This document shows, in pieces, positions 15,843 through 50,005 of a stretch of DNA of 64,000 nt. The position numbers were made by a program, and so were the translations under genes. The DNA is from Gammaproteobacteria bacterium (GTDB lineage: Bacteria; Pseudomonadota; Gammaproteobacteria; Pseudomonadales; Azotimanducaceae). Each line of letters starts with the position of its first letter. Position 1 is the stretch's first letter. Where the stretch lies: contig VXLL01000004.1 in assembly GCA_009841615.1 (NCBI GenBank), positions 63,305-127,304 of the forward strand, read 5' to 3'. The notes under the pieces were generated by a model. It did not search any database. It saw only the letters and a list, made by a program, of their open reading frames with translations, and was not told the origin of the DNA.

Positions 15843-16868
15843 ATGTATCCAGTACATATCAAATCGTTTTTCCGACGATTTCTACTACCATTATTTTTTA
15901 CCGGATATTTCGCTTCCGTAGTATCAGCTGAACTCAATTCGGTTCAGATAACTGATCAAACCCTGAGAGCAGTTGATTCCTGCTTAAAGTGGAAGGTCAT
16001 TGGCTCATGCACATGGCTTCACTGTGATCTGTTCAGTTGTCGGGTTCGAGTATCACTGAAGATTGGCCATTATCGTCCTGATCTAGTTGTTTCGGTCTAT
16101 CCGACAATTGAGTCACATCCATGGAAGGAGGTTAAAACAGTTGTTAAGACCGCATTCGATCAAATAAAAAATACATTACCAGAGGATCTTCGGGATGTCG
16201 TAGAAGAGAACGCCTTGGAACCTGGACACAGTTCGAAACATGTGTCGAGAAGTCTGCGATTCTTTGAAAGCGATGTCATTGGACACCCACTTGCAGATTT
16301 ACCAGCAAGTTACGGGAATTACTTTTGTACTTCCCAAACTGTTCCTCTTTTCCCATATTACAGCTCTCTACTAGACATCATTGCATGGCGGAATCCAGAA
16401 TTCGAAAGCCTCAACTTAATTAATTCAATTCCTGGTAGACGCGAAATTGGCCGATGGCCACTGTTCACTTGGGGTTCAGTCTATCCTAGGTGTGGCTGGA
16501 CCAATCAGCCAAGTCCTCCGAAAGCTGCCGCCGTCATCGCTCAACGCGCCGCCGATATCGCGATAAACGGAGGACTATTACGTGTTCGAACACCGATAGG
16601 AAAGTCTGCTGGTCGTCAGAAACGCTGGGGACCACCAGCTCTTCGAGAAGCAAATGGTAATACAGGAAAATGGCAGATGATTCATCCCCGGAAGCAGAGT
16701 TCGTGTCAATCCTTTGGGTCCAACGATCTATTTTCGATGTCCGATTGGGGTGGTGGTAAAGTGGACAAGAAAAATGCGTATCTTTGGGTTCTGTGGCGTC
16801 CATATAAGTGCTGTGCTAGACGGGGACAAGTATTCCTTGGCTCTGATGACGTTCACGGATACCCATGA
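15843..16868 (+). CDS. Conjugative element protein, TraU-like (PFL_4710/TIGR03756 type)
   Basis: 341 residues. A signal-peptide-like N-terminus (RFLLPLFFTGYFASVVSAE) is followed by a cysteine-rich exported domain: CLKWKVIGSCTWLHC, YGNYFCTSQTVPLFPYYSS, the TraU-like LFTWGSVYPRCGWTNQPSPPKA, and a C-terminal YLWVLWRPYKCC. In F-like and ICE-type T4SS, TraU homologues act in the periplasm in pilus assembly and DNA transfer and need disulfides. The end overlaps the next start by 4 nt (ATGA), showing translational coupling. It looks intact although most of the conjugation machinery is missing. The start is an ATG with a weak ribosome site. Confidence 0.85.
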   Translation: MYPVHIKSFFRRFLLPLFFTGYFASVVSAELNSVQITDQTLRAVDSCLKWKVIGSCTWLHCDLFSCRVRVSLKIGHYRPDLVVSVYPTIESHPWKEVKTVVKTAFDQIKNTLPEDLRDVVEENALEPGHSSKHVSRSLRFFESDVIGHPLADLPASYGNYFCTSQTVPLFPYYSSLLDIIAWRNPEFESLNLINSIPGRREIGRWPLFTWGSVYPRCGWTNQPSPPKAAAVIAQRAADIAINGGLLRVRTPIGKSAGRQKRWGPPALREANGNTGKWQMIHPRKQSSCQSFGSNDLFSMSDWGGGKVDKKNAYLWVLWRPYKCCARRGQVFLGSDDVHGYP

Positions 16869-18205
16869 AACAGTATCGCATTTCGATGTATGTGGTAGGT
16901 GTACTACTCTTAACAAGCCACGTAACTGCCCCTCCAGCTCCGCCTGAAAACAGCCTCTGGTACTACGAGATCGGTGGTGCTAAACCGGTATCCGCTCCAG
17001 CTAATCCAAGAGTCCATAGTACGACGATTGGGGGAAGCGCGAAATTGGGTCTCGGATATAGTTGTTTGAAATTCGACCCAGTTACTGCTGTAAGCGAAAC
17101 GCTGAATCAAGTTAAAGATGGGACCGAAAACATGCTCAACGCTATGACCCAGGCAGCTACTGGAGCGATCGCATCGTTGCCTGCGATGATTCTACAACGT
17201 GCCAATCCAGGTTTATACGACCTGTTTCAAAATGCACTCGTGCGGACCGAGCTCACCGTCGACCTCGCTACCAAGTCCTGTGAACAAATGGAAAGCGCGA
17301 TCGCAAATAACAAGAACCCTTACGAAGATCTGGTGGTGCTTTCAAAAGGAAATGATTGGAAAGTACAAATGGGAGTAGGGGGCGGAAGCGTAATTGCTGC
17401 TAAAGAAGCAGTGGCCCAAGCAAATGGAGCGAACGGTCTCCCTTGGATTGGCGGTAGTGCTGGTGGAGATGGTCAAGATCCCTTGGCGTTAACTGAAGAT
17501 GTCACTAGAGCTGGCTTCAACTTACAGATGAATCGCGCCCCAAGTGCGCAAGGTGCTGTCACTGCTGATCCGGACCAACGACTAACGCTCGTTTGGAACG
17601 ATCCAAGAGCAGCTGCCGAATGGCTAGTTGACGTGGTTGGGGAACACAGAGTTACCACCTGCGAGGGATGCGAGAAGTCAACTAGCCCAGGGAATGGGTT
17701 AGGACCCGTTTTGGAACGTGAAGAAAGTAACCTAACTACAGTCTTAGAGTCATTGGTCTCGGGAAGTCAAGCCCCGACACTTACCAACTTAGCGAGAGTC
17801 TCAGCACCAGGGATTGCTATCACTCGTGATGTTATTAACAGCATCAACACCTTACCGGTTACCGAGCAACAGATTGTCATCGATCGTTTGGTTGCTGAGA
17901 TCGCGGTCGCACGCACGGTGGAGAAAGCTTTTCTCGCTCGTCGCTTAATGAAATCGGGCAGTTCGATACCTGAAGTACAAGCAAATCCAGTTGCTCGAGA
18001 ACATGTTAACCAAGTGGTCCGCGAACTTGATTCAGAAATTAGTCGACTTGCATTTGAGGCACGGATACGAAAAGATCTAGTGTCGAATACCATAACCAAT
18101 TTGCTCAAACGACGTGAATCAAGGGAGCAGTCTTCTTTGACCGTTCCTGAACGTAGTCGGCGGGATCCACATCCCCTAATTGACGGGCATGTCGAAAATC
18201 CTTAA
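16865..18205 (+). CDS. Conjugative element protein, PFL_4711/TIGR03755 type
   Basis: 446 residues. A signal peptide (MYVVGVLLLTSHVTAPP) is followed by WYYEIGGAKPVSAPANP and a region KLGLGYSCLKFDPVTAVSETLNQVKDG typical of this ICE family, then a long helical part. By family it is a periplasmic T4SS component related in position to TraH-like proteins. It starts inside the stop of the TraU-like gene and its end overlaps the next gene by 17 bp, so the four genes form one operon. No frameshift or stop is seen. Cysteines (ATKSCEQME, TTCEGCEK) suggest disulfides. Confidence 0.83.
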   Translation: MKQYRISMYVVGVLLLTSHVTAPPAPPENSLWYYEIGGAKPVSAPANPRVHSTTIGGSAKLGLGYSCLKFDPVTAVSETLNQVKDGTENMLNAMTQAATGAIASLPAMILQRANPGLYDLFQNALVRTELTVDLATKSCEQMESAIANNKNPYEDLVVLSKGNDWKVQMGVGGGSVIAAKEAVAQANGANGLPWIGGSAGGDGQDPLALTEDVTRAGFNLQMNRAPSAQGAVTADPDQRLTLVWNDPRAAAEWLVDVVGEHRVTTCEGCEKSTSPGNGLGPVLEREESNLTTVLESLVSGSQAPTLTNLARVSAPGIAITRDVINSINTLPVTEQQIVIDRLVAEIAVARTVEKAFLARRLMKSGSSIPEVQANPVAREHVNQVVRELDSEISRLAFEARIRKDLVSNTITNLLKRRESREQSSLTVPERSRRDPHPLIDGHVENP

Positions 18206-18554
18206 CCGACGTGCATTTACTAAATTAGGTTTATTGGTTGCGCTGGTAGCAGGCGTAGCTGTTTCCATCCTGTTGGTAACCGTAAACGGTACCGCTGTCG
18301 TGTCTTGGCCGGATTGGTTTGCAGCAAACCACTGGTTAACGACGGTTGCTAGGGTAGGGCTCTTCGGTGTGGCAATCGCTACCTTTTATTCGGTCCTCAG
18401 ACACACCATTCAAAAATCCGAAAACGATGGAACTAACGCTCAACAAGCACAGCTACATGTTCGTATTCGACAACTGATTCTCTGGTTTCTCAGCATCGAA
18501 CTACTGTTTGGACAAGCTCTACTGCCTAGCATTTTGGAGTTATTCGTTTCGTGA
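18189..18554 (+). CDS. Small membrane protein of the conjugative element
   Basis: 121 residues from the ATG at 18189; a TTG three codons earlier is also in frame. It has about three predicted membrane segments: LGLLVALVAGVAVSILLVTV, ARVGLFGVAIATFYSVL and LILWFLSIELLFGQALLP. It overlaps the preceding gene by 17 bp and the TraG-like gene by 4 bp (GTGA). Its position between the PFL_4711-type and TraG-like genes is where this ICE family has a short membrane protein. Specific role unknown. Confidence 0.78.
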   Translation: MSKILNRRAFTKLGLLVALVAGVAVSILLVTVNGTAVVSWPDWFAANHWLTTVARVGLFGVAIATFYSVLRHTIQKSENDGTNAQQAQLHVRIRQLILWFLSIELLFGQALLPSILELFVS

Positions 18555-20092
18555 GTGTCGACAGCTATCTTGAACTGTATTCGACCATGTTTGGTTGGAT
18601 GTTCTATGGTGTTGTTTGGGATGTACTCGTTGCCACTGGCATTGTATATCTACCTTTTCTTGGCATCGTGATTGATTACTGGCGAAAACCGGCGTCAGAA
18701 GCACCTCACAATGTGTCCAGTGGAATATCCTTGCGGAAGATGGAACATGAGCTATTGCTAGCTCTCGTCGTTGTCATTTTTGCGGGGCAGCCTGTTGGTC
18801 TCACACCTTTCATCGCTAATACGTTAAGTTACACACCACCACCAACCGTTAACAATCCCAATCCGCCAACGGTAGATTTTTTCAATTCGCAAAGTACGTT
18901 TGGAACTACTGGATTTGAGGACGCGACCGACACTGTAGATGTTCCAATGTGGTGGTACGCAGTCATTGCATTTTCATCAGGGTTCAACCATGCCGTTGTG
19001 GAAGGGTTACCAAGAGCAAGTGAAATTCGTCATTTATCGCAATTGTCCCGGCTCGCAACGATCGAAGACCCAAGACTAAGGCAAGAAGTATCAGAGTTTT
19101 ACTCTGCGTGTTATGTGCCAGCGCGGTCAAAATTTTTAGACGAACAGCCTTCCTCTAGAGCAGTCAACAATTTACTAAGGCGGTTTGGGCACTCTGATAC
19201 TGACTGGATTGGCTCTCACGTTTATCGAGACATACCAGGATACTATGATTCTTTGCGAGCACGCACGCCTGTGAGTGGGTGGGCATTCGTCCCCAGTAGA
19301 GATATTGAATACGACGTAGCCAATCCGCCTCCAAACGGTCGTCCATATTGCACTCAATGGTGGGGGCACGCCCGACATGGTCTGCGAGCTAAACTCGTCG
19401 ATGCTGCAGACTCTAGTGCTCCGGGTTTCGCTACGCTGTTCTATAACCTTGCGCCGGCACTAGCGACCGAACGCCAGCTCGATTTGATAGCGCGCACGGT
19501 CCTTCTTCACACCCCAAGAAATTGGACCAGCAACGATTTATCTGCCGGAAATCAATCCACTACTGGGTTGCTCGGTCAGATTGAAAGTTTTGCAAAAGGC
19601 TTGTTATATCTTGTGGGTGCGTTTTCTACCGCCGCGGTCTTCACTGTGATAGTTACTGGACTGATCGCGATTGCTCCGATGATTCAAGCAATGATCCTAT
19701 TCGGAATCTATTCGCTTCTTCCGTTAATCGTCGTGTTTTCTCGGTATTCCTTCACGATCATGATTACTGGCGCACTGGCTATATTTGGGGTGAAATTTTG
19801 GACCGTGCTCTGGTATCTTGCGCAGTGGATTGACCAGAACATGTTCACTGCAATGTACCCCGACACCAACCTTTTGTTCGAGGTATTAACGAATTCGGGG
19901 GAACACACAACCAAACGCGTGTTGCTCAACGTCATTACTTCATGCCTATACATTGGGTTGCCTCTGTTGTGGAGTTCAATGTTGGGTTGGACTGGGTTTG
20001 CAATCGGGCAATCTTTAGACCGAGTGACTTCGCCGTTTGGACAACACACTCGAGGCGAGCCCCGTCGGATTGGATCTCTTCGCTTAAAGTAG
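18551..20092 (+). CDS. TraG N-terminal-type conjugal transfer membrane protein
   Basis: 513 residues from a GTG overlapping the previous stop. N-terminal membrane segments (YSTMFGWMFYGVVWDVLVAT, IVYLPFLGIVIDYW) carry the motif typical of ICE TraG-like proteins. A periplasmic loop follows (FVPSRDIEYDVANPPPNGRP, PYCTQWWGHARHGLRAKLVD), and four or more hydrophobic segments lie near the C-terminus (FTVIVTGLIAIAPMIQAM, LPLIVVFSRYSFTIMITG). In F-type systems TraG acts in mating-pair stabilisation. It is of typical length for the ICE version, which lacks the long C-terminal domain of F TraG. It is the last conjugation gene before the integrase, 5 bp away. Confidence 0.83.
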   Translation: MSVDSYLELYSTMFGWMFYGVVWDVLVATGIVYLPFLGIVIDYWRKPASEAPHNVSSGISLRKMEHELLLALVVVIFAGQPVGLTPFIANTLSYTPPPTVNNPNPPTVDFFNSQSTFGTTGFEDATDTVDVPMWWYAVIAFSSGFNHAVVEGLPRASEIRHLSQLSRLATIEDPRLRQEVSEFYSACYVPARSKFLDEQPSSRAVNNLLRRFGHSDTDWIGSHVYRDIPGYYDSLRARTPVSGWAFVPSRDIEYDVANPPPNGRPYCTQWWGHARHGLRAKLVDAADSSAPGFATLFYNLAPALATERQLDLIARTVLLHTPRNWTSNDLSAGNQSTTGLLGQIESFAKGLLYLVGAFSTAAVFTVIVTGLIAIAPMIQAMILFGIYSLLPLIVVFSRYSFTIMITGALAIFGVKFWTVLWYLAQWIDQNMFTAMYPDTNLLFEVLTNSGEHTTKRVLLNVITSCLYIGLPLLWSSMLGWTGFAIGQSLDRVTSPFGQHTRGEPRRIGSLRLK

Positions 20093-20097
20093 CCTAC

Positions 20098-20964
20098 TTG
20101 AAGCGTCTGGAGTATCAACTTAAACAACTCGTTTACCACAATCGAGACGGAAGTTTCACGACCCAGGCAAATCGAAAAAAGCATTTAAAACGGTTTGCGC
20201 GCGAACTACGTATGTTGGGGTACAACCAGATGCACGTTCGTTCCTTAAAACTCAAGCACGTTCATGCACTCATCAAGCATTGGCAAGGAGCCGGAAGCTC
20301 AATCGGTACCCAAAAGAACGCATTAGCACACCTACGATGGTGGGCACGTAAGATCGGAAAAGACGAGATGATTCCTAAGTCCAACAATGAACTCTTGATT
20401 GGCAAACGGAAATTGATACCAGCGGTATCCAAGGCTCAGTATCTCACGAGAACTGAACTGAAGTTGGTTTCGAACGAGTATATGCGTTTGAGCATAGAGT
20501 TGCAGCAACAGTTTGGACTTCGTCAGGAGGAAAGTCTGAAGTTCCGGCCCTCCTATGCTGATAAGGGGTCCCACATTGAACTCAAGGGTTCTTGGACGAA
20601 GGGTGGTCGGAAGCGTTCAATTCCAGTGGTTACGTTTGATCAACGCGATCTGATCGACCGAATCCATGCAATCGTGGGTCAAGGATCGTTAATCCCAGTA
20701 CAGTATTCGCTAAAACAGTGGAAGAAAAAATATGAACGAGTATTGGGAATTCTTCGGTTTAAAAATTTACACGGATTAAGACACGGATATGCTCAGCGCC
20801 GCTATCGCGATCTTGCAGGGTTTGAGTCAGTATTTGCTGGAGGTCCGAAGAGGAGAGCACTAGATTCAAATCAACAAGTGATCGATGTACAAGCGCGACT
20901 GCAAGTGAGTCAGGAACTCGGACACAACCGAATAGAAATAACTGATGTGTACTTAGGCCGCTAG
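20098..20964 (+). CDS. Tyrosine recombinase/integrase of the conjugative element
   Basis: Start set at the TTG at 20098 (MKRLEYQLKQL...), 5 bp after the TraG-like stop, because this is the N-terminus I recognise from the family; further upstream the frame lies inside the TraG-like gene. 288 residues. An N-terminal SAM-like core-binding domain (LKLKHVHALIKHWQGAGSS, NALAHLRWWARKIGK) precedes the catalytic domain: arginine in FGLRQEES, HxxR in LHGLRHGYAQ, a later histidine in QELGHNRIEI and the tyrosine nucleophile in DVYLGR at the very end. All key residues are present, so it may be active. This family (Integrase_1) is common in ICEs of pseudomonads and relatives. No attachment site was found. 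Confidence 0.87.
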   Translation: MKRLEYQLKQLVYHNRDGSFTTQANRKKHLKRFARELRMLGYNQMHVRSLKLKHVHALIKHWQGAGSSIGTQKNALAHLRWWARKIGKDEMIPKSNNELLIGKRKLIPAVSKAQYLTRTELKLVSNEYMRLSIELQQQFGLRQEESLKFRPSYADKGSHIELKGSWTKGGRKRSIPVVTFDQRDLIDRIHAIVGQGSLIPVQYSLKQWKKKYERVLGILRFKNLHGLRHGYAQRRYRDLAGFESVFAGGPKRRALDSNQQVIDVQARLQVSQELGHNRIEITDVYLGR

Positions 20965-21147: not shown

Positions 21148-22708
21148 TTAGGATTTCCAGTAGCGCGACGTAGATTTTCCCTCTAATTTAGCGATCAGGT
21201 ATTCTTGCCCTCTGGCCCCTTTGATTCGATTGCAGTTCGAACAAAGTAACTGTAAATTCTCTATATGGTCGGATCCGCCCGATTGACGAGCAACTATGTG
21301 GTCTACTTCAAAGTGTTGTATGGCAAAATGTTCTCCACATCCATTGCAGTATCCTTCTTGTTCCCCGTACAACTTTCTTTTATTCGCGAGTGAACTGTAT
21401 AGAGCGAGTGGACCCAAATCGGTGCGCTTAGGTATGTCAGTTCTTGCTACTATTTCTTCAAATAGTCCTTGATCTTTTTGAATTCGAACCGAAACCAGTT
21501 CCACTGCTATGGACGAGATGTCGATTCCCACCCAATTACGATTAATTCGATCGGCAGCAACCATCGCTGTTGCACAACCGCAAAAAAGATCAAAAACGGT
21601 ATCGCCTTCCGACGAACTTGCACGAATTATGCGATCGAGAAGGGCTAACGGTTTTTGGGTTGGATAGTCAGTTAATTCCTGGGATTTATATACTTAGGTT
21701 GAACATCCAAAATATATTTATTGACAGGTCGTCGAAGTCACCAAAGTGAACGCTTCTCGCTGTCCAGACGCCCCAATCCCAGAGGCCATACTGGTATTAT
21801 ACACATGTATTCAACCCAAATATGTAATTCCCTAATTACTCGCCTTCGGGTGGCTCTATATCAGACCAAAGGTTACCGATTTTTACACCGACGTTTGGGT
21901 CGTAAAACCTACGTCGTTCCATCTTCCCATCTTTCCTGATCACTACTTTCCCAAGTTGATATTCCTCTTTTAACTTCTCCTTCGACACTCTCCAACCCGA
22001 TGGGTGTGGATTGGTAACGCCTCGCCAGGTATAGCACAGGTTCGGGCGATCACCCATGTTCCTACTTCGAAAATGAGCTACGGTTGTTTATCGACGTCCT
22101 TGATTGTCCACTTTGGGAAATCTCGCACGGGCTTCCTGTTCACTCAGTTGTCTGAACGGAGCAACCCTTGTGTTAAGTCCACCGGTGTAAAACAGAATGT
22201 TATCGTTATGCACTCCCCATGTCTTTGGTTGATGCTGACTACCTTTCGCTCGTCCATACCGACGTTGCCACACTATTTCGTTTCGAAAGTTTCTGTGACC
22301 AAATATCGCGTCCATGAGCAGTTTTAAGTAGTGGCTCATAGTAGGGTCGCAGTGAAGATAAAGACTTCCGGTGGGTTTTAGTAATCTCTTCAATTCGAGC
22401 AATCTAACTGTCATATAGATTAGATATGACTTATTGCTCTGAGTGATCGCAGATCTCAGAATATGGTTTATTACTTTGTGTTTTGCTTCGATTAGGTCAA
22501 TCCAGGTAAGGTCTACGTCTTGAAGGGACCAGGTGTCTTTGAAGGCTGCACCAACTGCCTTACTGCCTAGGGGTGCAGCATAATCTGCTTTGGAATTGAA
22601 CGGAGGATCTAGGTAAACGAGGTCTATCGAATGTGAGTTCATGCCTCGCATTACAGGTAGATTATCACCGGTCCAAATGGTCTTGTTTACCCAGTTTGGC
22701 GTAGTCAT
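21148..22708 (-). pseudogene. DNA methyltransferase with C-terminal HNH domain, broken by a stop codon and a MITE
   Basis: Read on the minus strand from ATG 22708. The N-terminal part has IWTGDNLPVMRGM, the catalytic DLVYLDPPFNS, GSLYLHCDPTMSHYLK and NEIVWQRRYGRAKGS. An in-frame TAA at 22088-22090 ends this part; the same frame continues with LCYTWRGVTNPHPSGW to NLWSDIEPPEGE. A 152-bp insertion (21681-21832) then splits the gene. Beyond it the reading resumes with ELTDYPTQKPLALLDRII, the SAM-site VFDLFCGCATA, WVGIDIS, RTDIPKRTDLG and an HNH/zinc module (YCNGCGEHF, FEVDHIVARQSGG, LLCSNCNRIKG). This fusion is known from phages and ICEs. With one stop and one insertion it should make no full-length enzyme. 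Confidence 0.88.
21681..21832. mobile_element. 152-bp MITE inserted in the methyltransferase-HNH gene
   Basis: The terminal inverted repeats start with GGG and are 25 bp long with 20 matches: left GGGATTTATATACTTAGGTT onward from 21681, right (reverse complement) GGGAATTACATATTTGGGTT onward from 21832. The flanks are TAATTCCT (21673-21680) and TAATTACT (21833-21840), an 8-bp target duplication with one mismatch. Removing the element and one flank copy joins the host gene in frame (GGC GAG GAA TTA ACT GAC TAT on the minus strand). The interior has no coding capacity, so it needs a transposase in trans. GGG ends and 8-bp duplications fit IS1595-like elements, but that is unverified. Confidence 0.88.
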
Positions 22709-22961: not shown

Positions 22962-23987
22962 ATGGATCGAAAATTAAGTAAAGCTCTCGCGGAATCATTT
23001 AAGAGATTTGACGTCCAGCAGAGAGTCGACCGTCTCGCGAGTTGGCAAGCTAGAGCCTCGGATGCATCACAAACTAACTACGATCATGCTATAACGGTAA
23101 ACGACTTTTACGATCTCTCAACGGAATTGGCTAGATGGGGATGGCACGAATCGTTTCATTTCGCTCCTCTGAAAGAAGGAGAGTCTTTGAACGAGGCGAT
23201 CATACGTCATGAGCGATCGATGATGAACAAGCTGCAATTAGACTCCACAAAAACAGTACTGGATGTTGGTTGTGGAATTGGTGGCCCCATGCGGCACGTA
23301 GCGCGTACGACTGGTGCACAAGTACTAGGTATAAATATCAATGAGCATCAGATCAAAGTAGGGCAAGAGTTGAACCAAGCAGCTAAACTTGATCATTTAG
23401 CAGATTTTGTGCAATGTGATTTCATGGATTTGGGCGTGCTCGAACCTGATTCCTTTGATGCAGCCTATGCAATAGAGTCTACCGCTCATGCCCCAGACAA
23501 GCCCGGGGCTTACGAACAGATTTATCGCGTGTTGAAGCCTGGTGCTTACCTTTGGGGTCAAGAGACCATATTAACTGATAAATTTCGTGCAGAGAATGCG
23601 GAACACCAAAGAATCAAACGTCAATTAATGAACACCATGGCACTTTACGAGATTGGTTCGATCTCAGAGGTTAAGGGAGCACTTGAGAGAGTAGGGTTTA
23701 GAGTAGATGAGTGCGAAGATCTTGGACGGCCAAGTCCCGACTCTGTTCCGTGGTATATACCACTCACCGGTAAGGGGCAGTTCTTCCATGCATCTAGGAC
23801 CAGTCCTGTTCGACGCGCCTACACGTTGATGACACTCCGAATGGCAGAGGCTTTCCGTCTCGTTCCTAAAGGCACAGCAGCCGCAACCAAATTGACTGCC
23901 GCAGTCGCTGATGCGAGTATTGAAGGAGGTAGAGCCGGGATCTTTTCAGTACTTGGTTGTTTTCTCGCACAAAAACCAGCAACTTAA
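22962..23987 (+). CDS. Sterol C-24 methyltransferase (Erg6/SMT-like)
   Basis: 341 residues. It matches eukaryotic Erg6 along its length: FYDLSTELARWGWHESFHFA corresponds to the SMT region I (YEYGWGxSFHF), LDVGCGIGGPMRHVAR is the SAM motif, YAIESTAHAPD matches yeast YAIEATCHAP, IYRVLKPGAYLWGQE follows, and VPWYIPLTG with a C-terminal GRAGIFSVLGCFLAQKP corresponds to the Sterol_MT_C domain. The family transfers a methyl group from SAM to C-24 of the sterol side chain. Bacterial homologues are rare and known mainly from uncultured lineages. It is a single gene, divergent from the methyltransferase pseudogene, with no sterol cyclase nearby. The start is ATG without a clear ribosome site. The sterol substrate and position remain inference. 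Confidence 0.85.
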   Translation: MDRKLSKALAESFKRFDVQQRVDRLASWQARASDASQTNYDHAITVNDFYDLSTELARWGWHESFHFAPLKEGESLNEAIIRHERSMMNKLQLDSTKTVLDVGCGIGGPMRHVARTTGAQVLGININEHQIKVGQELNQAAKLDHLADFVQCDFMDLGVLEPDSFDAAYAIESTAHAPDKPGAYEQIYRVLKPGAYLWGQETILTDKFRAENAEHQRIKRQLMNTMALYEIGSISEVKGALERVGFRVDECEDLGRPSPDSVPWYIPLTGKGQFFHASRTSPVRRAYTLMTLRMAEAFRLVPKGTAAATKLTAAVADASIEGGRAGIFSVLGCFLAQKPAT

Positions 23988-24081
23988 AACATACAGTCAA
24001 AAACGATGAGGATAATAGTCGATGAAATCCTAGTCGTTCAGTAGAAACGACGAAAATACGTAACCATTGAGATGACACTAA

Positions 24082-24619: not shown

Positions 24620-26572
24620 CTACTGGGAAGGAGCTCTATAGCGTCGAAATCGACCGTCTAATATCATCATTTGAAAATTCTTTTGCATCTCCTTTCTTTC
24701 GTCTTCGGTCATGTTTTCTATATTGTTCATTAATGCAAATTGTGCCGATTCCGATCCGCGTCTCCCTGTCTCAGAGTTGTAGTCTGAAGGTAGAAATTGC
24801 TTTACGTATGACACTTGTTCCTTTGTCAACACATTCCGTCCAACATTAAACCTAATGAGATCCATGGCTGCGTTGTACTGTGCGTCAGTGGAAGGGAGAT
24901 CTTCCAGCTTAGAGACCAATGATTTTGGATCGGAGTAAGCCCATTCATTGATAACCAGATTGTAGTACAAATTTCGACTCTCTTCTGGCACTTGTTGAGC
25001 CAATGCTAAAGCTCGATCAGTGTCATTGTTACCAACTAGAGCTTTGCCCAAGGCTACAGCACCGAAACTCTTAGTGTAGCCTTCTCGTACCTGCGCAAGC
25101 ATACTCATCGCTAGTTCGATATCGGTTTGTGCTACTTCCGCGATGACGGTGGCCTCCAAACCGAGTCCCATTGAGTCAAAGGGTTGATCAAGAGCCGTTT
25201 GTAACGCAAGCTCTGGATTTTCTGCAGCGAGTTTTCGAAGTACAGTGTTGAGTACTTGGTTTCGCAAAGATTCAGTTGAAAAAGATTCGGCTAACGCCCA
25301 ATTCAACGCTTCTAGAACGTTCTTGTCAGCCCAGTGAATAGCAATTTCCATCTTAAGTTCGTCCTTCAAAAATTCGTCCGAGACTGTCTCCAAATACGAT
25401 ATCGTATCTTCAGGTACGGTCCTCGCGAGCTTACGAAGGGCTTTCTCCTCGGCGTGGGCACGTAGGTTGTCGGGAATGAGATCAAAATTCTCAAACAATT
25501 CTTTGGGATCGTAGTTAGCCCAAGCGGTTACAAAGTGTTCGAGCATCTGACGGCGTGCTCTTTGTGATTCAATTAAGGAAATTGATTCCAATGCTTCTTT
25601 AGGACCTACACTCGCCCAAGCACTAGCGATAGTTTCCATCGCGAGTTCACGTAATTCGCCTTTAAAATTCAAAACTTGCTGCATCGTCGAGTGCGGATCG
25701 GTCAGTATGGCTTGCTGAAGTACAGAACCTAACACTACCTTCTTCAGAATGGAATCTTTCAAAGATTGATCGATTTGTGCAATCGCTTCTAAACCTGCTT
25801 GGTCCACCCAAGTATGTGCAACTCGAATGAGTGCTTCGGTCTGTGCCACATTTGATTGGTCGTCAGTGAATAATTGTTCCCACTCATCCGAAAAAGACGT
25901 GGCGACAATACCTTGTTCAAGCTCGCTCAAGTCAATCTGAAGTTCAAGAGCTATTGCTTCTTTCTCGGTACTTGAGAGTTCGTGTTGAGATGCAAGTATT
26001 CCTTGAATTGCGGCGTACTTTCTAGACTGATCGAGAGTGTTTGCTTGGTCGATTGCTCCATCCAAATCTAATTTAGACCACTCGGTGAATACGCTAGCAA
26101 TCAATGGATTGTGGCGATCACTTGACAAGTTATCAATAGTGGACAATGCTAATTTAGGGTCTATATTCGTGAAGCGTTGCACGATAGCGGTTTGCGTAGT
26201 GTGTTGTAATGACTCCGATCCAATATTCTCAGATTGTTCGAGTAGCTGAGCCAACAAATTCGTGTCGGCAGAGAACAACAAGCTATACAGAGCTTCAGTT
26301 CTCTCAAAAGCACTGGGTGCCTGATTCAAAAACTTGAGAAGACCTAAGTCTGTTTCGCGATTACGTGAACTAGTTGAACGAGAACTCTTGAGTTCAGTCT
26401 GAGAGCCATTCGCATCCGTGATCGATATTTCATTCGAGAAGTCCTCAATGTTGGAGTCACTCTTCATCGAATTGAGTCCAAAAAGGACACCCAGAGTGGC
26501 TGCGATTCCCAAGACACTCCCGGTTGTGACCAATATGATGGTACGATTTCGATTTGTTTTTATTGAACTCAT
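24620..26572 (-). CDS. Membrane-anchored helical-repeat protein, paralogue 1
   Basis: 650 residues. A short cytoplasmic tail and one membrane segment (IILVTTGSVLGIAATLGVLF) are followed by a long exported region of about 30-36-residue helical repeats, many with a tryptophan and a DP or similar pair (VFTEWSKLDLDGAID, AWASVGPKEALESI, AWANYDPKELFENF, IHWADKNVLEALNWAL, EWAYSDPKSLVSKLEDLP). This is a HEAT/TPR-like solenoid, suited to protein binding. The C-terminus is polar. It sits 112 bp downstream of a clear paralogue on the same strand, probably one operon. The ATG has a GAGAGCGAG ribosome site. Function unknown. Confidence 0.78.
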   Translation of the reverse strand: MSSIKTNRNRTIILVTTGSVLGIAATLGVLFGLNSMKSDSNIEDFSNEISITDANGSQTELKSSRSTSSRNRETDLGLLKFLNQAPSAFERTEALYSLLFSADTNLLAQLLEQSENIGSESLQHTTQTAIVQRFTNIDPKLALSTIDNLSSDRHNPLIASVFTEWSKLDLDGAIDQANTLDQSRKYAAIQGILASQHELSSTEKEAIALELQIDLSELEQGIVATSFSDEWEQLFTDDQSNVAQTEALIRVAHTWVDQAGLEAIAQIDQSLKDSILKKVVLGSVLQQAILTDPHSTMQQVLNFKGELRELAMETIASAWASVGPKEALESISLIESQRARRQMLEHFVTAWANYDPKELFENFDLIPDNLRAHAEEKALRKLARTVPEDTISYLETVSDEFLKDELKMEIAIHWADKNVLEALNWALAESFSTESLRNQVLNTVLRKLAAENPELALQTALDQPFDSMGLGLEATVIAEVAQTDIELAMSMLAQVREGYTKSFGAVALGKALVGNNDTDRALALAQQVPEESRNLYYNLVINEWAYSDPKSLVSKLEDLPSTDAQYNAAMDLIRFNVGRNVLTKEQVSYVKQFLPSDYNSETGRRGSESAQFALMNNIENMTEDERKEMQKNFQMMILDGRFRRYRAPSQ

Positions 26573-26684: not shown

Positions 26685-28589
26685 TCATTCTTCCTCCCTC
26701 TCTTTTTGTTGTACTGGGTTGAGAAAGATCATTTGTACTTGATCGTCAAACCAACGGTTGGACATTTGTCTCATTTCTCTTGTTCGGCTATAAGGATCGA
26801 CATAGCCTTCAGGTAAAAACTTTCCAACTTGCTCCATCTGCAGCGAACTTAGTGCCTTTGTCTCCGGGTTGTATCGCACAAGTCCTCTCGCGGCTTGATT
26901 CTTCAATTGATCAGAGGGAAGCCCCTCCAATGCTTCGAACAGTGTCTCTGGATTGGACATAGCCCATTGATACATGAGCTCAGTGGTGTAGTTTCTACGG
27001 CGATTCTCTCCTAATCTTTGTCCTAGTGCGAGAGCGCGATCATACTGGCCATCCCGAATCATTGCACGCCCGACCTCACCATATGCATGAGGGATAGTTA
27101 ATCCTTCGCGTCGTATTTCTGATAGCATCGCGAGAGCTTTGTCTATATTTATGTCGACCAAGTTCTGTATCACCGTAACTTCCATGCCTCGGTAATGTAC
27201 GCCGCGCAAAACTATCGGTTGATCTCGTGCAGTTTTGAAGGCAAGTTCAGGATCATTGCTCGCTAGATTGGCCAACACGATCATCAGTGTTTCTGCCTGC
27301 TGGACATCAGTCGTGAACGTCTCATTAAGGACCCAATCCAAAGCGGCATGAGGGTCTTGTTCGGACCAATTTGTAGCAATTTCCTTGGCGAGCTTGATTC
27401 TGAGATCATCGTCTTCTATTTCAGAGAGAAACGACACTGCTTCTTCTGGAGATATACGTGCGATCGCCAGCATCGCTTCTTGCTCAGCCATGGCGCGTAG
27501 GTGTTCCGGCACTACCGCCAGCATCTCAAGTAAATCACTCGGGTCATGCGCGGCCCAAGCTATTAACAGGCTTTCCTGAAGCAGTTTGAGAGTTTTACCA
27601 CTCTCCATGGTTGCAATATCAACTAAAGCAGCTTGTGGATCGATTCGAGCCCAAACTTCGGCGATTGTCCGGATTGCAAGTTCCCGCGAATCGCTAGTAA
27701 GCTGTAAAGCTTCAATTAACGCTGCATGTGGGTCGTCTTGTGCGATTCGGTGCAATGCGGACATTATGACCGCATCGCGAACGACTGTATCCGTGAGCGA
27801 TTCGCTGATCTGATCAATTACCGAAATTCCTTCCTGAATCAGCCACTCCGTTGCGACTCGTATGAGAAATTCTGTTTGTGCAAGGTTTGGCTGACTGTCG
27901 AAAACGATACGATTCCAAGCTAACCTGGGATCTTCAGAGGCTGAAAATGCAACAGCTTCAGCGAGAATGCGCACCGCATAAGCCTCTTGATTCAATTCCT
28001 TGGCTATATCTAACAACAAATCATCAGAATGTTTGTGTCTTGCTAGCAAAATCCCTTGTACTGCCGCCTGTGTTAAAGTTGGATCGAGTGCCAACGCGAG
28101 ATTCTTGGCATCTTCTAGATCAGAAAGTGCGACTTCCTCAAAAATAAAAGTTACTAAATCTTGTTGGTTACCTATTGGTAAAGTCCTTACCTGCTCGAGC
28201 GCGATTTGTGGATTCAACGAAGCCAATTTTTGAATTATCGCACTTTCAATGGATTTACGCAGGGAAGGGGAGTCAAACGTTTTGGATTTGTCCAAATACT
28301 CAATTAGAGTGTCTTCAGCGGCACTCATTAACAGCCCGAATAGAGCTGCTCTTCGTTCAAATTCAGTCTTAAACTGCAAGACATCTTCGAGTGTCTGAAC
28401 GCTAATGCTTGTACCCGTTGTCTCAGACTTGGTGTTCAGAATATTGGAAGGGATTCCTGCTCGCCAATCTTTAGTGTTATCCCCGTCGAAGAAAGGAGAA
28501 AGGAAAACGACAGCAAGAGTCGCGGCACTCCCTACGATAGCACCTCCAATCAATGCTGAGCCGGTTTTAACTTGGTTTGATTTAAGCAT
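26685..28589 (-). CDS. Membrane-anchored helical-repeat protein, paralogue 2
   Basis: 634 residues, first gene of the pair, with GGGAGG before its ATG. Same layout as the next gene: one N-terminal membrane segment (GSALIGGAIVGSAATLAVVF), then a solenoid with W-DP repeats (EVWARIDPQAALVDIATM, IAWAAHDPSDLLEML, TNWSEQDPHAALDWVL, YQWAMSNPETLFEALEGLP). The shared motifs NLAQTEFLIRVATEW and NVAQTEALIRVAHTW show common descent. The thioredoxin-ankyrin gene ending 28659 lies upstream on the same strand, 69 bp away, so all three may be co-transcribed. Function unknown. Confidence 0.78.
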   Translation of the reverse strand: MLKSNQVKTGSALIGGAIVGSAATLAVVFLSPFFDGDNTKDWRAGIPSNILNTKSETTGTSISVQTLEDVLQFKTEFERRAALFGLLMSAAEDTLIEYLDKSKTFDSPSLRKSIESAIIQKLASLNPQIALEQVRTLPIGNQQDLVTFIFEEVALSDLEDAKNLALALDPTLTQAAVQGILLARHKHSDDLLLDIAKELNQEAYAVRILAEAVAFSASEDPRLAWNRIVFDSQPNLAQTEFLIRVATEWLIQEGISVIDQISESLTDTVVRDAVIMSALHRIAQDDPHAALIEALQLTSDSRELAIRTIAEVWARIDPQAALVDIATMESGKTLKLLQESLLIAWAAHDPSDLLEMLAVVPEHLRAMAEQEAMLAIARISPEEAVSFLSEIEDDDLRIKLAKEIATNWSEQDPHAALDWVLNETFTTDVQQAETLMIVLANLASNDPELAFKTARDQPIVLRGVHYRGMEVTVIQNLVDINIDKALAMLSEIRREGLTIPHAYGEVGRAMIRDGQYDRALALGQRLGENRRRNYTTELMYQWAMSNPETLFEALEGLPSDQLKNQAARGLVRYNPETKALSSLQMEQVGKFLPEGYVDPYSRTREMRQMSNRWFDDQVQMIFLNPVQQKEREEE

Positions 28590-31012: not shown

Positions 31013-31807
31013 TTGAGACGTTTAAAACGTATCGGAAAGGTCTTTGGCTGTGCGTATTTGGTGATCTGCGCAGTCTTATGGGGAATCCAAGGATTCATTA
31101 TCTTCCATCCCGTAACCAGCGACTATGATGTACGAGGTTCGACTACTGAATATGAGGTTGTGGTTGACGAATCGGGGGACCTTAAATCTCGGGGATACAT
31201 CGTCAATCAAAATGCTTTAGGACCGGTAGTCTTATTTTTTACCGGAAATGCTGGTGAGGCCTTAAGCTATACCTACACGCTTTCGCAACTAAACGTACCT
31301 GTGGTCCTGTCGAACTATCGCGGGTATGGAAAGAGCGATGGTCGCCCTTCTGAAAAAAGAATTCTCGCTGATGCAAAGATCACGTTAGAAATGGTGCGAG
31401 AACGCTATCCTGATCGTCCCGTGGTTCTGATGGGATTCAGTATGGGCAGTGCCGTTGCGATTCGCACCGCGGACTCAGACATTGCCGGTGTCATTCTTAT
31501 CAGTCCGTTTCGCTCAACGGTTCATGTCGCAAATAGGAGCTTGCTTCGAATCTTTCCAGTTCGGTTTTTGATGCGGCACAAGTTTGATACTCGTGCAAGT
31601 CTAGAGACCCTTCCCGAGCCGGTTCTAGTGATATACTCTCGAACAGATACAACAATATCCCCTAAGGAAACAGAACGCGTACTTGACAAAATCCCTGACG
31701 CTGAAGTTATCGTCGATAACGTGCATCACAGTGCAATCTTAAGCCGGTCTCAGAATCTGCGAGCCATCCGAGATTGGTTAACAGAGAACTTTAAACACGA
31801 CGATTGA
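31013..31807 (+). CDS. Alpha/beta hydrolase, membrane-anchored (BEM46/ABHD13-like)
   Basis: 264 residues from a TTG; no other start fits, because the membrane segment begins at once (VFGCAYLVICAVLWGIQGFII). The next part, FHPVTSDYDV, is typical of the BEM46-like family. Oxyanion region VVLFFTGNAGEALSY, the strand NYRGYGKSDGRPSE, the nucleophile elbow VLMGFSMGSAVAI (serine in GFSMGS), aspartate in VIYSRTDTTISP and a final histidine in VDNVHHSAIL complete the triad. The domain should be anchored at the inner membrane. Substrates of the family are poorly known. It is a single gene; no strong ribosome site. Confidence 0.83.
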   Translation: MRRLKRIGKVFGCAYLVICAVLWGIQGFIIFHPVTSDYDVRGSTTEYEVVVDESGDLKSRGYIVNQNALGPVVLFFTGNAGEALSYTYTLSQLNVPVVLSNYRGYGKSDGRPSEKRILADAKITLEMVRERYPDRPVVLMGFSMGSAVAIRTADSDIAGVILISPFRSTVHVANRSLLRIFPVRFLMRHKFDTRASLETLPEPVLVIYSRTDTTISPKETERVLDKIPDAEVIVDNVHHSAILSRSQNLRAIRDWLTENFKHDD

Positions 31808-36001: not shown

Positions 36002-39000
36002 TTAACCTGGTCGGATTCTCAACTTCCCGCGTAGTTCTTCGACTTCACCTCGGTGTATCATCTCGTCAATTGCGTGATTTAAGCGATCTGTTAGTCCAGG
36101 AGTTACTCGGCCAAAGCCTAGTCGATTTCCGAGAACCTTGATGCATTCATCTCGGGAAACACTGATACCTTCTCGTACAATCATCACGACACCGGCACTC
36201 AATTCCCCAAGTGGGAGGTATTCGTGCTTTCGGACTTGTGATAGTTCGACGTTCGTTCGATCTCGTAAATCCTTCGGCTGAATGAAGTCGGCAACAACGT
36301 AAAACTGGTCTCCGTCGCCTGGGGATTCACGTATCGCACCAATGCGGCAAGCGTGTTGAATCGCTCGCAATAGTGCTTCTCTGATGCGAGAACCGGTTCG
36401 GCCGACATTCCAGAGTTTGACAACACGCCCCAAGATGACATCTTGATGTACTGACCCTTCAATGTCGACGATTTTGGTAACGATGTTTGCTAGATCATGT
36501 TGGGCAACTTCATGAATGCTAAGAAGCGCAGCAGAACTCACTATTTCGTCCGATGATTTAGGCTCTCTGTACGCGATCAGTCCTTTGACATTCTTCGATG
36601 TATCGGTGCCATGAGAAAGTGTTCGTTCTATTGGGGACTGGGAACCAGCTTGCAATTCCGTTTCGCTAAACTGATTGTCTCCGGCTACTTCGGTGTGCTG
36701 TGCAACTTCGATCGCCGATAGCAATTTTTTGACTTCTGTGTCTCGGTTGTAAAACCAATCAGTACTCCAGATTCGATGAAACTTCCATCCTTTGCCTTCG
36801 AGCACTTGTTGTCGTAACCGATCTCGTTCGCGTGCCCAGGCAGATGAATGGTAACGTGCACCATCACATTCAATTGCTAAAACGTAGTCGACGGATCGAT
36901 CGGGATGGCGAACTGCGAGATCGATCTTAAACCCAGCTGAACCAACTTGTGCTTCTACGTCATAGCCGTGAGAAAGAAGAACATTCGCGACGTCGCGTTC
37001 AAATGGACTATCCATCTCCTCACCCGTTAACTGTGGAACATCCATGTCCCCAGTCGCGGCGTATTTGAGATATGCCTTTAATACTCGAGGTCCTTGATGC
37101 GCACTAACGTCTGAGCGAATGTCTTCGTGAGAAATCGAAGCAAAGACAGTACAGCGTTTTCGAGCACGAGTGAACAATACGTTTAGTCGCCGCTCTCCGC
37201 CCTGAGAAGACACCGGACCAAAATTTTGTCCAAAGTATCCGTCTTTGTCTTTGCCATACCCAATTGAAATGAAGATGACATCTCGTTCATCTCCTTGTAC
37301 ATTCTCTAGATTCTTTACAAAGAAAGCTTCTTCCTTGGACTCCGCACAGAAGCGGTCGACATCAGGGTGCTCGGCCCGCAAAAATTCCATTTTGTTATCA
37401 ATAGTATCTCGTTGTGCGACCGAAAGTGCGACAACACCGAGTGATTGGGCAGGATAGTTTCTAACATGTGCTAGCACGTGGTCACATATCTCGTCAGCTT
37501 CTATGGGATTATTTCTTTGCCGCCCACGTTGATACACTCCGTTTGTACGTACTAAACTCAGACCTAATCCTGCATGACCGGAGAAGGGTGTAGGAGGGTA
37601 GGTTAGTTTTGCGTCATAGAACTCGTGGTTTGATACTTCGATAAGTGAGGGATGTTCTGATCGATAGTGCCATCGAAGCATTGCTCGATCTATAGCTCGA
37701 GCGTCACATAATGAAAGAATACTCTCCATGTGTACCGCTTGGCTTCCCAAGCTAACATCTTCGTCTTCGTCCAAGTCGTCCCCCGAAACTTGACGATCAA
37801 AGAACGATGTCGGTGGCATTTGTTTTTGATCGCCGACTACGACCATCTGCTTGCATCGCAAAACGGCACCCAGAGCTTCTGATGGTTTTATTTGACTGGC
37901 TTCGTCGATTAGCAAAAGATCAAAAGCAAGCCTTCCAGGTTCGAGAAATTGGGCGACTGAAAGAGGGCTCATCAAGAATACTGGTTTTATCTGTACGATT
38001 GCTTCTCCAGCCTCGGAAAGTAGCTTTCGAATGGGCATGTGTCGTGATTTCTTATTGATTTCTCCGCGAATCAAAGCAAGTTGTCCAGTTTGTCCTCGAG
38101 GAATCTTGAGGTAATGATCACGCGCAAGTTCTTGAGCAGCAAGATGTTGTAATTCTGAATCGAGCTCGACGAATTTCTTTACTTTATTTGTTCGTTCAGC
38201 ACCATCCAATTCACTAATACTTGGTTCTGCTTCAGCAAGTCGGTAAAAGACTGATTCCGCTCGTAATAATCGGAATATGTCAGCAACCTTATTTAGGCGT
38301 AAGTCGTCTTTCGCAAGACATTCGCGAACGGAAGCTAAACCTCGTTCTTCTAGCTCATTACCAAGCGATCGGAGTACGTGGTAGCCATCAAGGCTGTCCA
38401 TGTTTTGAATCCAAAGATTTATCTTTGACGTGATAGTTGGTAATGGTACTAAGGAAATTTCTACATCAGCGAAGACATTCGACCAATTAATCTCCGCAAA
38501 CTCTTGCAACTCCGTTAACTTGTGTTTCAAATCAACAACTTGTTGCTTAAGATCGTCTGCTCTTGAGCGGTATTCACCAACAGAAGGATTACCTTCTACC
38601 ACAACTTGCAACACTTCATATCGCTTTGTAATATGAATGACGTCTTTAATCCAATCTAACGCTTCTAGAGTGCCTTGGACGTTAGTTGATTCCACCTGCC
38701 AGTTCAGATTGAAGAATGCTTGTCCAATGTTTGCTTGTTTCGAAATTTGTGCCACAAGCTGTTCGTACTTAAAGAGGTCTTCAACAAGACCAATGAGATG
38801 AGGGAGCTTTTTGTTATGCTTTTTAGATACGCTCAATACCTGCTGACGAGCGCGCCTAAATGCACCGTTAATAGATCGAAATATGGAACCACTGTGTTTC
38901 TTGAGATCGTTAAGTGTAATCTCCCAGGATTGAGAGAACGCATCTGACACTACTAGAACCTCTAAGGAAGTTCTGGATTCTTCTGCTGTTTTGATGTCTT

Positions 39001-40741
39001 GACATAGATTCAACAATGTTTCAAAATGATCTTTTACTATTTCAGATTGCATTACCAACGTTAGACCAGCAGGTTGGTTTCCGAGAGCGGTTAGCAAGTC
39101 AACGATCTCTTCGCAATCTGCAAGACTCGGAGCGTCATAGAGCGAACAGTCTTTTATCGATGTGGAAGCAAACTTGTGGATTTCATTCGCAAAATGGGAT
39201 AAAGATGCAAGTATTTCTGACAGTCTTATCCTGTTTGCGGTATTCATCCGACGGTGCACACCACGCCAAAGGTGAGTGTTTTCCCGTCCGACCAACTGAA
39301 CCTGTGCTATATAAGCTTCAACTGCTTTGAGGTGATCTTCAAACGTACCTTTACTCCACGCGTCAATTCCGTCAATGGAAAAGTTTGGTGGTGGAGTACC
39401 TCGACCTATCAGCTCTGAAATTCGGCCCATGAGTAAATGGGGCGTGTTCCCGGTTTGCTCATCCACTCTGTGTAACAACGCCGTGGTTTGATTCAGTTCA
39501 TCTCGTATCCGCTGAATTTCCTCGTACTTGTTTTGCGCTACCTCAACAGGTTCATGTAGTTCCATGGTCTTTCGCAATTCTTGATAGAACTGGTTGCGAT
39601 TACTCTTCTGGGAATGTAGTTCCAAACAAAGCGGGCCTAGACCGCTTCTCTCAAGTCTCTTGAAAACCACATCGAGCGCAGCTCGTTTTTCTGCGATGAA
39701 GAGTATCCTTTTACCTGCTTTCGCCATTACTGCAATCATGTTGGCAATGGTTTGACTCTTTCCCGTTCCTGGTGGACCTTGAACTACTAAATTTCGTCCG
39801 TCCTTAACCGCTGTTATTACTTGAGTTTGTGAAGTATCAGCATCTAGAATATGTCCTAAGTCTTTGACTTGACTGTACTTTTTGTCTAGATTCTCCATTT
39901 TTGCATGAATGGAAATTTGAGATCCTCCAGATGATTCATCTCCTCTCCCGAGCAATAACCGTTCCAATAATTGATTTGTAGTATCTGATTCCGATTCTTG
40001 TAGTTCAAGATCTCGTAGCATGCGAAATTTACCAAAGGAGAAGAAACCCAACACCATGCGATTCAATTGAACGACCCAACGATCTTTCGTCCCGATCGTC
40101 TCTTCGACGCGGCGACTATAAGACATAGGGGTTTCCTTGCCTTCCTCGCCCAAAATAGGGAGCAAAATTCCAAAGTCACTCTTTAGCAGACTAGTAAGCG
40201 ATTGATTCGGTTCAATATCGTCATCCCGCCCGACAAGGCTAAATTGAGACCGAACGCTACTGCGCTCTAAATCAACTGGTACCAGAATCAACGGACCATA
40301 AAAGGCTCGTTCAGATGTCTCTGAATCAAAATATCTCAGAAAACCTAACGCAAGATAAAGGACATTAATTCCTTGTTCTTCTTCGATACGGCGAGTTTCC
40401 CTATAAAGAGATAGAAGTTTCTTATGAAGTCCATCGTGACTGAGTGTAGTCTGAAGTTTTGAGTCGGTGTGTTTCTCCAACACTGCACCTTCTACCTCAT
40501 CTGGAATATACACTGCTTGATCGTTGTGTTCTGTAAACGCTGATTCAAGAGATAGGGGAAGAAAAGTGAACTTTTTTCGTTCTGCGACTAAGCGATTGAA
40601 CACTTGATTTGATAGTTCATCAACGATCTCTAAGTGGCGCGCTCGCGCAGAGTCTAAAGGAGTATTGGTTAATGGATTACGCTTTCCAATGTCAACTAGC
40701 TGTTGCCGTTGGAGTGCTAGTGCTTCGTGTAGTTGGCTGAT
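36002..40741 (-). CDS. DUF4011-helicase-nuclease-DUF3320 protein (candidate Hhe-type antiphage gene)
   Basis: About 1579 residues if started at the AUC at 40741, which has TAAGGA 6 nt upstream. No ATG, GTG or TTG exists between the upstream stop (about 40751) and a GTG at 40603, yet those 46 codons encode conserved DUF4011 sequence (LVDIGKRNPLTNTPLDSARA). Helicase SF1 motifs follow: VVQGPPGTGKSQT (about 325), LLLIDEASQIKPSEALG (about 945), VVGDQKQMPPTSF, WHYRSEHPSLIEVSN and LFTRARKRC (about 1189). A DUF559/Vsr-like nuclease has IECDGARYHSS (about 1293); a DUF3320 domain lies near 1415-1455. This order is that of the single-gene Hhe defence system. It is divergent from glutathione reductase. 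Confidence 0.85.
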   Translation of the reverse strand: MSQLHEALALQRQQLVDIGKRNPLTNTPLDSARARHLEIVDELSNQVFNRLVAERKKFTFLPLSLESAFTEHNDQAVYIPDEVEGAVLEKHTDSKLQTTLSHDGLHKKLLSLYRETRRIEEEQGINVLYLALGFLRYFDSETSERAFYGPLILVPVDLERSSVRSQFSLVGRDDDIEPNQSLTSLLKSDFGILLPILGEEGKETPMSYSRRVEETIGTKDRWVVQLNRMVLGFFSFGKFRMLRDLELQESESDTTNQLLERLLLGRGDESSGGSQISIHAKMENLDKKYSQVKDLGHILDADTSQTQVITAVKDGRNLVVQGPPGTGKSQTIANMIAVMAKAGKRILFIAEKRAALDVVFKRLERSGLGPLCLELHSQKSNRNQFYQELRKTMELHEPVEVAQNKYEEIQRIRDELNQTTALLHRVDEQTGNTPHLLMGRISELIGRGTPPPNFSIDGIDAWSKGTFEDHLKAVEAYIAQVQLVGRENTHLWRGVHRRMNTANRIRLSEILASLSHFANEIHKFASTSIKDCSLYDAPSLADCEEIVDLLTALGNQPAGLTLVMQSEIVKDHFETLLNLCQDIKTAEESRTSLEVLVVSDAFSQSWEITLNDLKKHSGSIFRSINGAFRRARQQVLSVSKKHNKKLPHLIGLVEDLFKYEQLVAQISKQANIGQAFFNLNWQVESTNVQGTLEALDWIKDVIHITKRYEVLQVVVEGNPSVGEYRSRADDLKQQVVDLKHKLTELQEFAEINWSNVFADVEISLVPLPTITSKINLWIQNMDSLDGYHVLRSLGNELEERGLASVRECLAKDDLRLNKVADIFRLLRAESVFYRLAEAEPSISELDGAERTNKVKKFVELDSELQHLAAQELARDHYLKIPRGQTGQLALIRGEINKKSRHMPIRKLLSEAGEAIVQIKPVFLMSPLSVAQFLEPGRLAFDLLLIDEASQIKPSEALGAVLRCKQMVVVGDQKQMPPTSFFDRQVSGDDLDEDEDVSLGSQAVHMESILSLCDARAIDRAMLRWHYRSEHPSLIEVSNHEFYDAKLTYPPTPFSGHAGLGLSLVRTNGVYQRGRQRNNPIEADEICDHVLAHVRNYPAQSLGVVALSVAQRDTIDNKMEFLRAEHPDVDRFCAESKEEAFFVKNLENVQGDERDVIFISIGYGKDKDGYFGQNFGPVSSQGGERRLNVLFTRARKRCTVFASISHEDIRSDVSAHQGPRVLKAYLKYAATGDMDVPQLTGEEMDSPFERDVANVLLSHGYDVEAQVGSAGFKIDLAVRHPDRSVDYVLAIECDGARYHSSAWARERDRLRQQVLEGKGWKFHRIWSTDWFYNRDTEVKKLLSAIEVAQHTEVAGDNQFSETELQAGSQSPIERTLSHGTDTSKNVKGLIAYREPKSSDEIVSSAALLSIHEVAQHDLANIVTKIVDIEGSVHQDVILGRVVKLWNVGRTGSRIREALLRAIQHACRIGAIRESPGDGDQFYVVADFIQPKDLRDRTNVELSQVRKHEYLPLGELSAGVVMIVREGISVSRDECIKVLGNRLGFGRVTPGLTDRLNHAIDEMIHRGEVEELRGKLRIRPG

Positions 40742-49774: not shown

Positions 49775-50005
49775 GTAGATTGGTTGATGTCGAGTCGTGA
49801 TCAATTAACACCGTTACGCTGTTGGAAATCTCCTGTGAACACGTCGATCCGCGAGTTAGATTTTCAATACTCTTCTTCGATATTACACGTTCCAACGAAT
49901 TCTTCTCGTCAAAAGCCGTTACTCAATACATTTTGTACATCTAACACGACAGCGTACAGTACTAGGGGCACGCAGTCTTAATAGAGAGTACCACAATAAT
50001 ATGAA

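Follow-up and report, generated by a model that had tools for sequence, protein, structure and literature searches.

A putative sterol side-chain methyltransferase in a gammaproteobacterium that probably lacks the sterol operon of its relatives

The gene that we call SMT-A lies in a 64,000-nucleotide stretch of a gammaproteobacterial contig (the window) and most likely encodes a working side-chain sterol methyltransferase, an activity that we deduce from its sequence. Our whole explanation, to which we give a probability of about 0.7, is that SMT-A would be a sterol side-chain methyltransferase, that a candidate tailoring module lies at a second such gene (SMT-B), and that the sterol would be acquired in this organism. 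The source genome (G000) is an assembly of 2,657,221 bases in 38 contigs, 92.34% complete and 0.32% contaminated, and the genomes closely related to it are bins obtained from sponges and corals. As judged from the family, the Rossmann domain of SMT-A would bind SAM, its N-terminal aromatic region and C-terminal domain would hold a delta-24 sterol, and a methyl group would be placed on C-24 by electrophilic addition and deprotonation of the Erg6 type.

Bacterial SMTs of sponge metagenomes and the sterol operon of the relatives have already been published, and SMT-A adds to this known kind. The sequence-only reading had described bacterial SMTs as rare and mostly from uncultured lineages, a picture that needs updating: 20 of the 24 metagenomic SMTs assayed methylated sterols (8/10 and 12/14), and the other 4 methylated neither substrate (Brown et al., 2023, PMC10070321). 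Like SMT-A, the enzymes described there are bacterial, several of them sponge-metagenomic, and consist of a methyltransferase and a C-terminal domain; some sit in sterol gene clusters (Brown et al., 2023).

Domains, motifs and tree placement of SMT-A

The gene and its parts are as follows.

22962–23987 (+): SMT-A, bacterial sterol methyltransferase homologue by domains, tree and dN/dS, 341 aa from ATG to stop; the ORF is intact and spans exactly these positions
23127–23162 (+): region I, residues 56–67, LARWGWHESFHF; GW and SFHF kept, the Tyr/Glu of Erg6 (sequence entered by hand) replaced
23259–23552 (+): Methyltransf_11 (Pfam), residues 100–197, including the SAM motif LDVGCGIGGP
23466–23498 (+): region III motif, residues 169–179, YAIESTAHAPD
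23790–23978 (+): Sterol_MT_C (Pfam), residues 277–339, 40.4 bits against a cut-off of 21.7

SMT-A combines a methyltransferase domain (Methyltransf_11, 68.9 bits against a cut-off of 21.2) with Sterol_MT_C, both over the curated cut-offs, and all 34 aligned relatives match Sterol_MT_C at E 0.001 or better. This arrangement, together with the tree below, bears out its identification as an Erg6-like SMT with a C-terminal Sterol_MT domain. One translated reverse frame of the region contains many stops, and G+C at the gene (0.476 for 23001–24000) is inside the window range of 0.412–0.502. All NCBIfam matches are far under cut-off, the top one being a sarcosine/dimethylglycine methyltransferase, and the sequence relatives in the PDB (MitM, RebM and similar) are only distant. 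The AlphaFold model (mean pLDDT 88.9) best matches SAM methyltransferases of the AtmM/RebM/MitM type, with no solved structure of a true SMT among the fold matches listed.

Yeast Erg6 and plant SMT1/SMT2 have the same domain layout and the SAM and YAIE motifs in common with SMT-A, which is 33–40% identical to their sequences as entered by hand. In the alignment SMT-A keeps the SAM motif, the region III YAIE and the PWY motif, and two motifs quoted earlier, VPWYIPLTG and YAIESTAHAPD, are both literal in the protein. A third, YEYGWGxSFHF, stands in part: GW and SFHF are present, but the protein reads ARWGWHESFHF, with Ala and Arg in the first two positions. These presumably correspond to Tyr81 and Glu82 of Erg6, and the position that we take to be Glu209 is Gln in SMT-A. 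In these region I replacements, and in belonging to a separate bacterial group, SMT-A differs from the yeast and plant enzymes; most of that group (the A/B group) deviates from YEYGWGxSFHF as well.

The phylogeny that had been proposed, of SMTs against tocopherol-type methyltransferases, was obtained by maximum likelihood from 58 rows, the root being set with VTE4, fragments of RebM and MitM, and a distant homologue (L026). Identical or near-identical copies were collapsed, and removal of a UbiG outgroup (end branch 10, which spoiled the root) and of five near-duplicates reduced 64 rows to 58. The eukaryotic rows (Erg6, SMT1 and SMT2) and VTE4, the single tocopherol-type row, were entered by hand and not taken from a database; the SMTs assayed by Brown et al. 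(2023) are not among the rows, nor are the SMTs of three of the 43 named loci discussed below (L062, L077 and L080), which the ORF picker missed. One clade (99/99) holds all SMT rows, SMT-A included, against gamma-tocopherol methyltransferase (gamma-TMT), RebM, MitM and L026. A position outside the SMT clade, which had been named beforehand as an outcome that would refute the identification, was thus not observed with these rows. The first part of the clade contains the hand-entered Erg6, SMT1 and SMT2, the operon-linked SMT-C and two more sequences of the genus (92/91), and the second, the A/B group, consists of 44 rows that are all bacterial (86/92), among which SMT-A forms a branch of its own from five genomes (100/99) with a copy from G010 as sister (99/98). 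The program flagged long branches, among them Erg6, SMT2 and VTE4, and the clade stem is long. Rows from Gemmatimonadota and Latescibacterota bins are nested in a group with two sequences of the same genus (100/92), which suggests, if the binning is right, SMT transfer between phyla.

A tocopherol-type identity for SMT-A was rejected: gamma-TMT, one hand-entered row, has the SAM methyltransferase fold in common with it and falls outside the SMT clade. The VTE4 sequence of that row is 23% identical to SMT-A.

It is also conceivable that SMT-A, within the SMT clade, has shifted to a non-sterol substrate such as a quinone, a carotenoid, a hopanoid or another triterpenoid. The region I changes and the Gln at the presumed Glu209 position could be read in this way, as could the long clade stem, the solitary position of SMT-A outside the module and the hypothetical nature of a sterol source for G000. 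Against this, SMT-A is placed among the SMTs and keeps Sterol_MT_C, a sterol-type Rieske oxygenase and a CYP46A1/CYP51-like P450 recur beside its paralogues, and sterol operons occur in the same genus, so that we consider such a shift unlikely and favour a sterol substrate.

Selection and the neighbouring conjugative element

The sequence-only reading had placed SMT-A beside mobile-element remnants. Such genes indeed adjoin it, with the integrating-conjugative-element (ICE) proteins TIGR03756 and TIGR03755 matching over cut-off.

15843–20092 (+): conjugative-element genes, namely TraU/TIGR03756, TIGR03755, a 124-aa ORF and TraG_N, shared with relatives
20098–20964 (+): tyrosine integrase/recombinase, directly upstream of SMT-A in G011, G008 and G013
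21148–22708 (−): HNH gene (21148–21564) and DNA-methylase fragment (22088–22708), between integrase and SMT-A

SMT-A lies near the same ICE genes in five relatives (G011, G005, G008, G002 and, with a broken frame, G013), although in G002 about 5.8 kb of other genes separate the two. The HNH gene and the DNA-methylase fragment do not appear in the ORF lists of the corresponding place in G011, G008, G005 and G013. Between G000 and these relatives, dS of SMT-A is 1.09 (G011), 0.84 (G008), 0.85 (G005), 0.99 (G013) and 2.60 (G002), values that fall within the range of the neighbouring genes or reach its upper end. Given this synteny in five relatives and a dS like that of the neighbours, the arrangement of SMT-A and ICE genes predates the split of these species; a recent arrival of SMT-A with the element is therefore rejected, and the suggestion that its neighbourhood made transfer possible finds no support as far as recent transfer is concerned. 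The same evidence bears on a recent eukaryotic origin by way of the element, an idea invited by the ICE genes and integrase directly adjoining SMT-A; given in addition that SMT-A groups with bacterial SMTs rather than with the hand-entered eukaryotic rows, we regard this origin as barely credible.

The same-genus orthologues of SMT-A are 84, 83, 82 and 79% identical to it, and a fifth, at 72%, has a broken frame. Among the five intact genes, dN/dS is 0.05–0.12 in nine of ten pairs; the closest pair gives 0.31. SMT-A is thus under purifying selection, and the orthologues and dN/dS together argue that it is more than a chance frame. They also make it highly improbable that SMT-A is a non-functional paralogue in decay, even though the frame is broken in G013 and the best matches of other members of the genus do not reach the identity level of SMT-A. 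In G013, a coral-derived bin, the gene (L013; L045 10001–11026) carries six in-frame stops between two frameshifts, which reflects either real decay or an assembly error.

Elsewhere in the window, two related repeat proteins (24620–26572 and 26685–28589, both −) evolve faster than their neighbours; neither has a clear Pfam family, and the first has one weak TPR match. A 1533-aa protein (36002–40603, −) matches anti-phage ProA at 1256.9 bits, under the cut-off of 1500. At 54541–63950 (+), an ABC-transporter-like ATPase ORF is followed by five similar large membrane-protein-like ORFs of 500–562 aa, as judged by eye from the translations.

Sterol synthesis genes in the genus and in the source genome

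In a search of 58 genomes, SMT matches with E of at most 1e-20 came from 17 of the 18 of the same genus (G000 included; the exception is 77% complete) and from 2 of the other 40: the match in G023 is good, and that in G052 is weak and lies outside the SMT clade. The second SMT of G000, SMT-B, is on another contig (C32) and is 46% identical to SMT-A. The search for an oxidosqualene cyclase that had been suggested found none in G000 (92.34% complete), with matches in 2 of 14 named genomes serving as positive control; 11 of the 18 genus genomes carry a cyclase. A search of G000 for ERG4/ERG24 gave no match, but its positive control was silent too, and a squalene-epoxidase match lies under cut-off inside a UbiH-like FAD gene.

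In G011 a sterol operon sits between the hydrolase of SMT-B and an RND pump. It encodes SdmB-like (297.5 bits, cut-off 600), SdmA-like (412.4 bits, cut-off 600) and ERG4_ERG24 (230.2 bits, over cut-off) proteins and a squalene epoxidase/cyclase fusion (TIGR01787 513.2 bits, over cut-off; TIGR03463 723.8 bits, cut-off 851), as well as a P450 with the motif GQHTS, presumably that of CYP51, and then SMT-C. The same run occupies the syntenic place in G005 and G008; in G008 the cyclase match runs to the contig end, and in G005 it is split over two frames (L033 15877–19343). The gene order (oxidoreductase, Rieske, sterol reductase, CYP51, epoxidase-cyclase fusion and an SMT on the other strand) is common to G011, G005, the msb locus described for a Melophlus gammaproteobacterium (PMC7074536) and the CSG clusters described for Ircinia symbionts (PMC9531527). 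In genomes with this type of operon, sterol could be home-made. SMT-A, which adjoins ICE genes, is not linked to such an operon, and both it and the loci of SMT-B, GPP34-P450 and KshA-like Rieske are other genes than those of msb and CSG.

Between G011 and G005, dS is 0.15–0.36 for the operon genes and the RND/MFP pair and 0.83–1.10 for SMT-A, SMT-B, the P450 and the hydrolase. From this difference the operon seems to have been exchanged recently between species, in agreement with the CSG transfer reported in PMC9531527, while SMT-A seems to follow its own neighbourhood. Such a mosaic is seen across several loci (L031–L034 and L076), where divergence between species is far smaller in operon and RND genes than in SMT-A, SMT-B and the hydrolase. 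A low dS (0.41) is likewise seen for the Rieske gene between G000 and G011.

SMT-A might instead be one step of a complete sterol pathway of the organism's own, the cyclase operon having been lost in assembly or binning. The cyclases of the genus and the syntenic operons of G011, G005 and G008 speak for this, as does the fact that in G000, itself incomplete, contigs C32 and C34 break exactly where these relatives carry the operon. However, the final 141 bases of C32 and the initial 141 of C34 are 94% identical, with the last 54 exact, and exact 54-base overlaps of this kind join seven contig-end pairs among all 76 contig ends of G000 (C32–C34 and six others). Such overlaps are most likely of the kind that an assembler leaves at a branch, with C32 running straight into C34; alternatively, a repeat that flanks an operon left out of the bin could produce the one at C32–C34. 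Given the overlap, an operon hidden in a C32–C34 gap is the less likely reading, and since the six other pairs overlap in the same way, the operon is probably absent from G000. Furthermore, in G002 and G013 (94 and 96% complete) the contiguous flanks hold neither operon nor SMT-C, and genome searches found no cyclase in either. The 395-aa gene located immediately beyond SMT-C in G011 is still present in G013, which points to operon loss in the latter. We therefore rate a complete pathway in G000 as quite unlikely. With no cyclase found and an operon site that looks empty, an acquired sterol is our best guess for G000, and it would come from the host or from neighbouring bacteria.

Sterol-acquiring bacteria have been discussed before (PMC10942540), and an SMT from drinking-water Chlamydiae likewise comes from a bin without other sterol synthesis genes, for which host sterols were suggested (Brown et al., 2023). 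Unlike that bin, G000 has two SMTs, a P450 and a Rieske oxygenase.

A recurring neighbourhood and its meaning for sponge and coral sterols

Two further genes of the window have counterparts around SMT-B or its homologues.

31013–31807 (+): alpha/beta hydrolase, paralogue of one beside SMT-B on C32; linked to sterols by position only
48758–49804 (−): KshA-type Rieske oxygenase, 348 aa, homologue of a Rieske gene beside SMT-B homologues elsewhere

The Rieske protein has the Rieske and KshA_C domains (KshA_C 85.6 bits), both metal motifs, and a fold that superposes on that of KshA (3-ketosteroid 9-alpha-hydroxylase; TM 0.78, about 21% identity in the fold match), with which it shares both domains. 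No steroid-breakdown genes were recognised beside it within the window.

We fetched 43 named loci with two peptide patterns characteristic of A/B-group SMTs, and the sample is restricted accordingly. A GPP34-P450 fusion is present in 29 of them, an RND gene in 26, a Rieske of the window type in 13 and the operon in 3. In the 21 loci of 20 kb or more that are not SMT-A loci, the corresponding counts are 19, 17, 8 and 3; these loci are not all independent, as five (L067, L068, L073, L076 and L081) are from near relatives of G000, and the RND part of the association is weak, such pumps being common. None of the four lies within reach of SMT-A in the five SMT-A loci. The bins are labelled Gammaproteobacteria, Alphaproteobacteria, Gemmatimonadetes, Latescibacterota, Dadabacteria and Chloroflexota; the prefix Plut presumably denotes coral, and prefixes such as RHO, COS, IRC and APA fit the sponge species of PMC8163846.

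At the genome level, full-length GPP34-P450 occurs in all 18 genus genomes and in 2 of 40 others. An SMT and GPP34-P450 lie within 15 kb on one contig in 14/18 genus genomes, and with the Rieske gene too in 7/18. Rieske homologues (at least 35% identity over most of the length) are found in 16/18, the genome search finding none in G005 and G006, and looser relatives are widespread in the order. The best PDB match of GPP34-P450 is CYP46A1, the cholesterol 24-hydroxylase (E 5e-20), followed by CYP51. None of the 29 aligned fusions has the acid-threonine pair that is the usual rule in the P450 I-helix (some have Y-T there), and the chemistry is possibly unusual. Our literature searches for a GPP34-P450 module returned nothing.

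The fusion on C32 of G000 (L004 15814–17799) has 661 aa, and upstream of it, in relatives too, is an array of TlpA-like lipoprotein ORFs (L004 2446–15627). G000 has a second P450, of 447 aa, on C27 (L028 1414–2757), not near an SMT.

From position and family, SMT-B homologues, GPP34-P450, the RND pump and often a KshA-type Rieske would form a sterol-tailoring module. A broader reading, which we hold tentatively and at somewhat less than even odds, is that sponge and coral symbionts of several phyla may share by horizontal transfer a module of an A/B-group SMT, the CYP46A1/CYP51-like GPP34-P450 fusion, a KshA-like Rieske and an RND pump, acting on sterols obtained from the host or from bacteria nearby, and that some lineages, G000 included, would have kept the tailoring genes while being without the operon. 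The overlap of C32 and C34 raised its probability. Less expected is that likely sterol-modifying genes recur beside SMT relatives even where de novo genes were not found. If the broader reading is true, some of the sterols with alkylated side chains that are attributed to sponges could come from bacteria unable to make sterols.

In the fossil record, steranes alkylated at C-24 are taken to indicate eukaryotes, and 24-isopropylcholestane is taken to indicate sponges. A warning that bacteria carry working SMTs has been given (Brown et al., 2023). Should bacteria that make no sterols alkylate those that they acquire, they would go unnoticed as sources in searches for cyclases, and a sponge and its bacteria would jointly account for the sponge's sterol profile; the loci named here make this idea of acquired sterols testable gene by gene.
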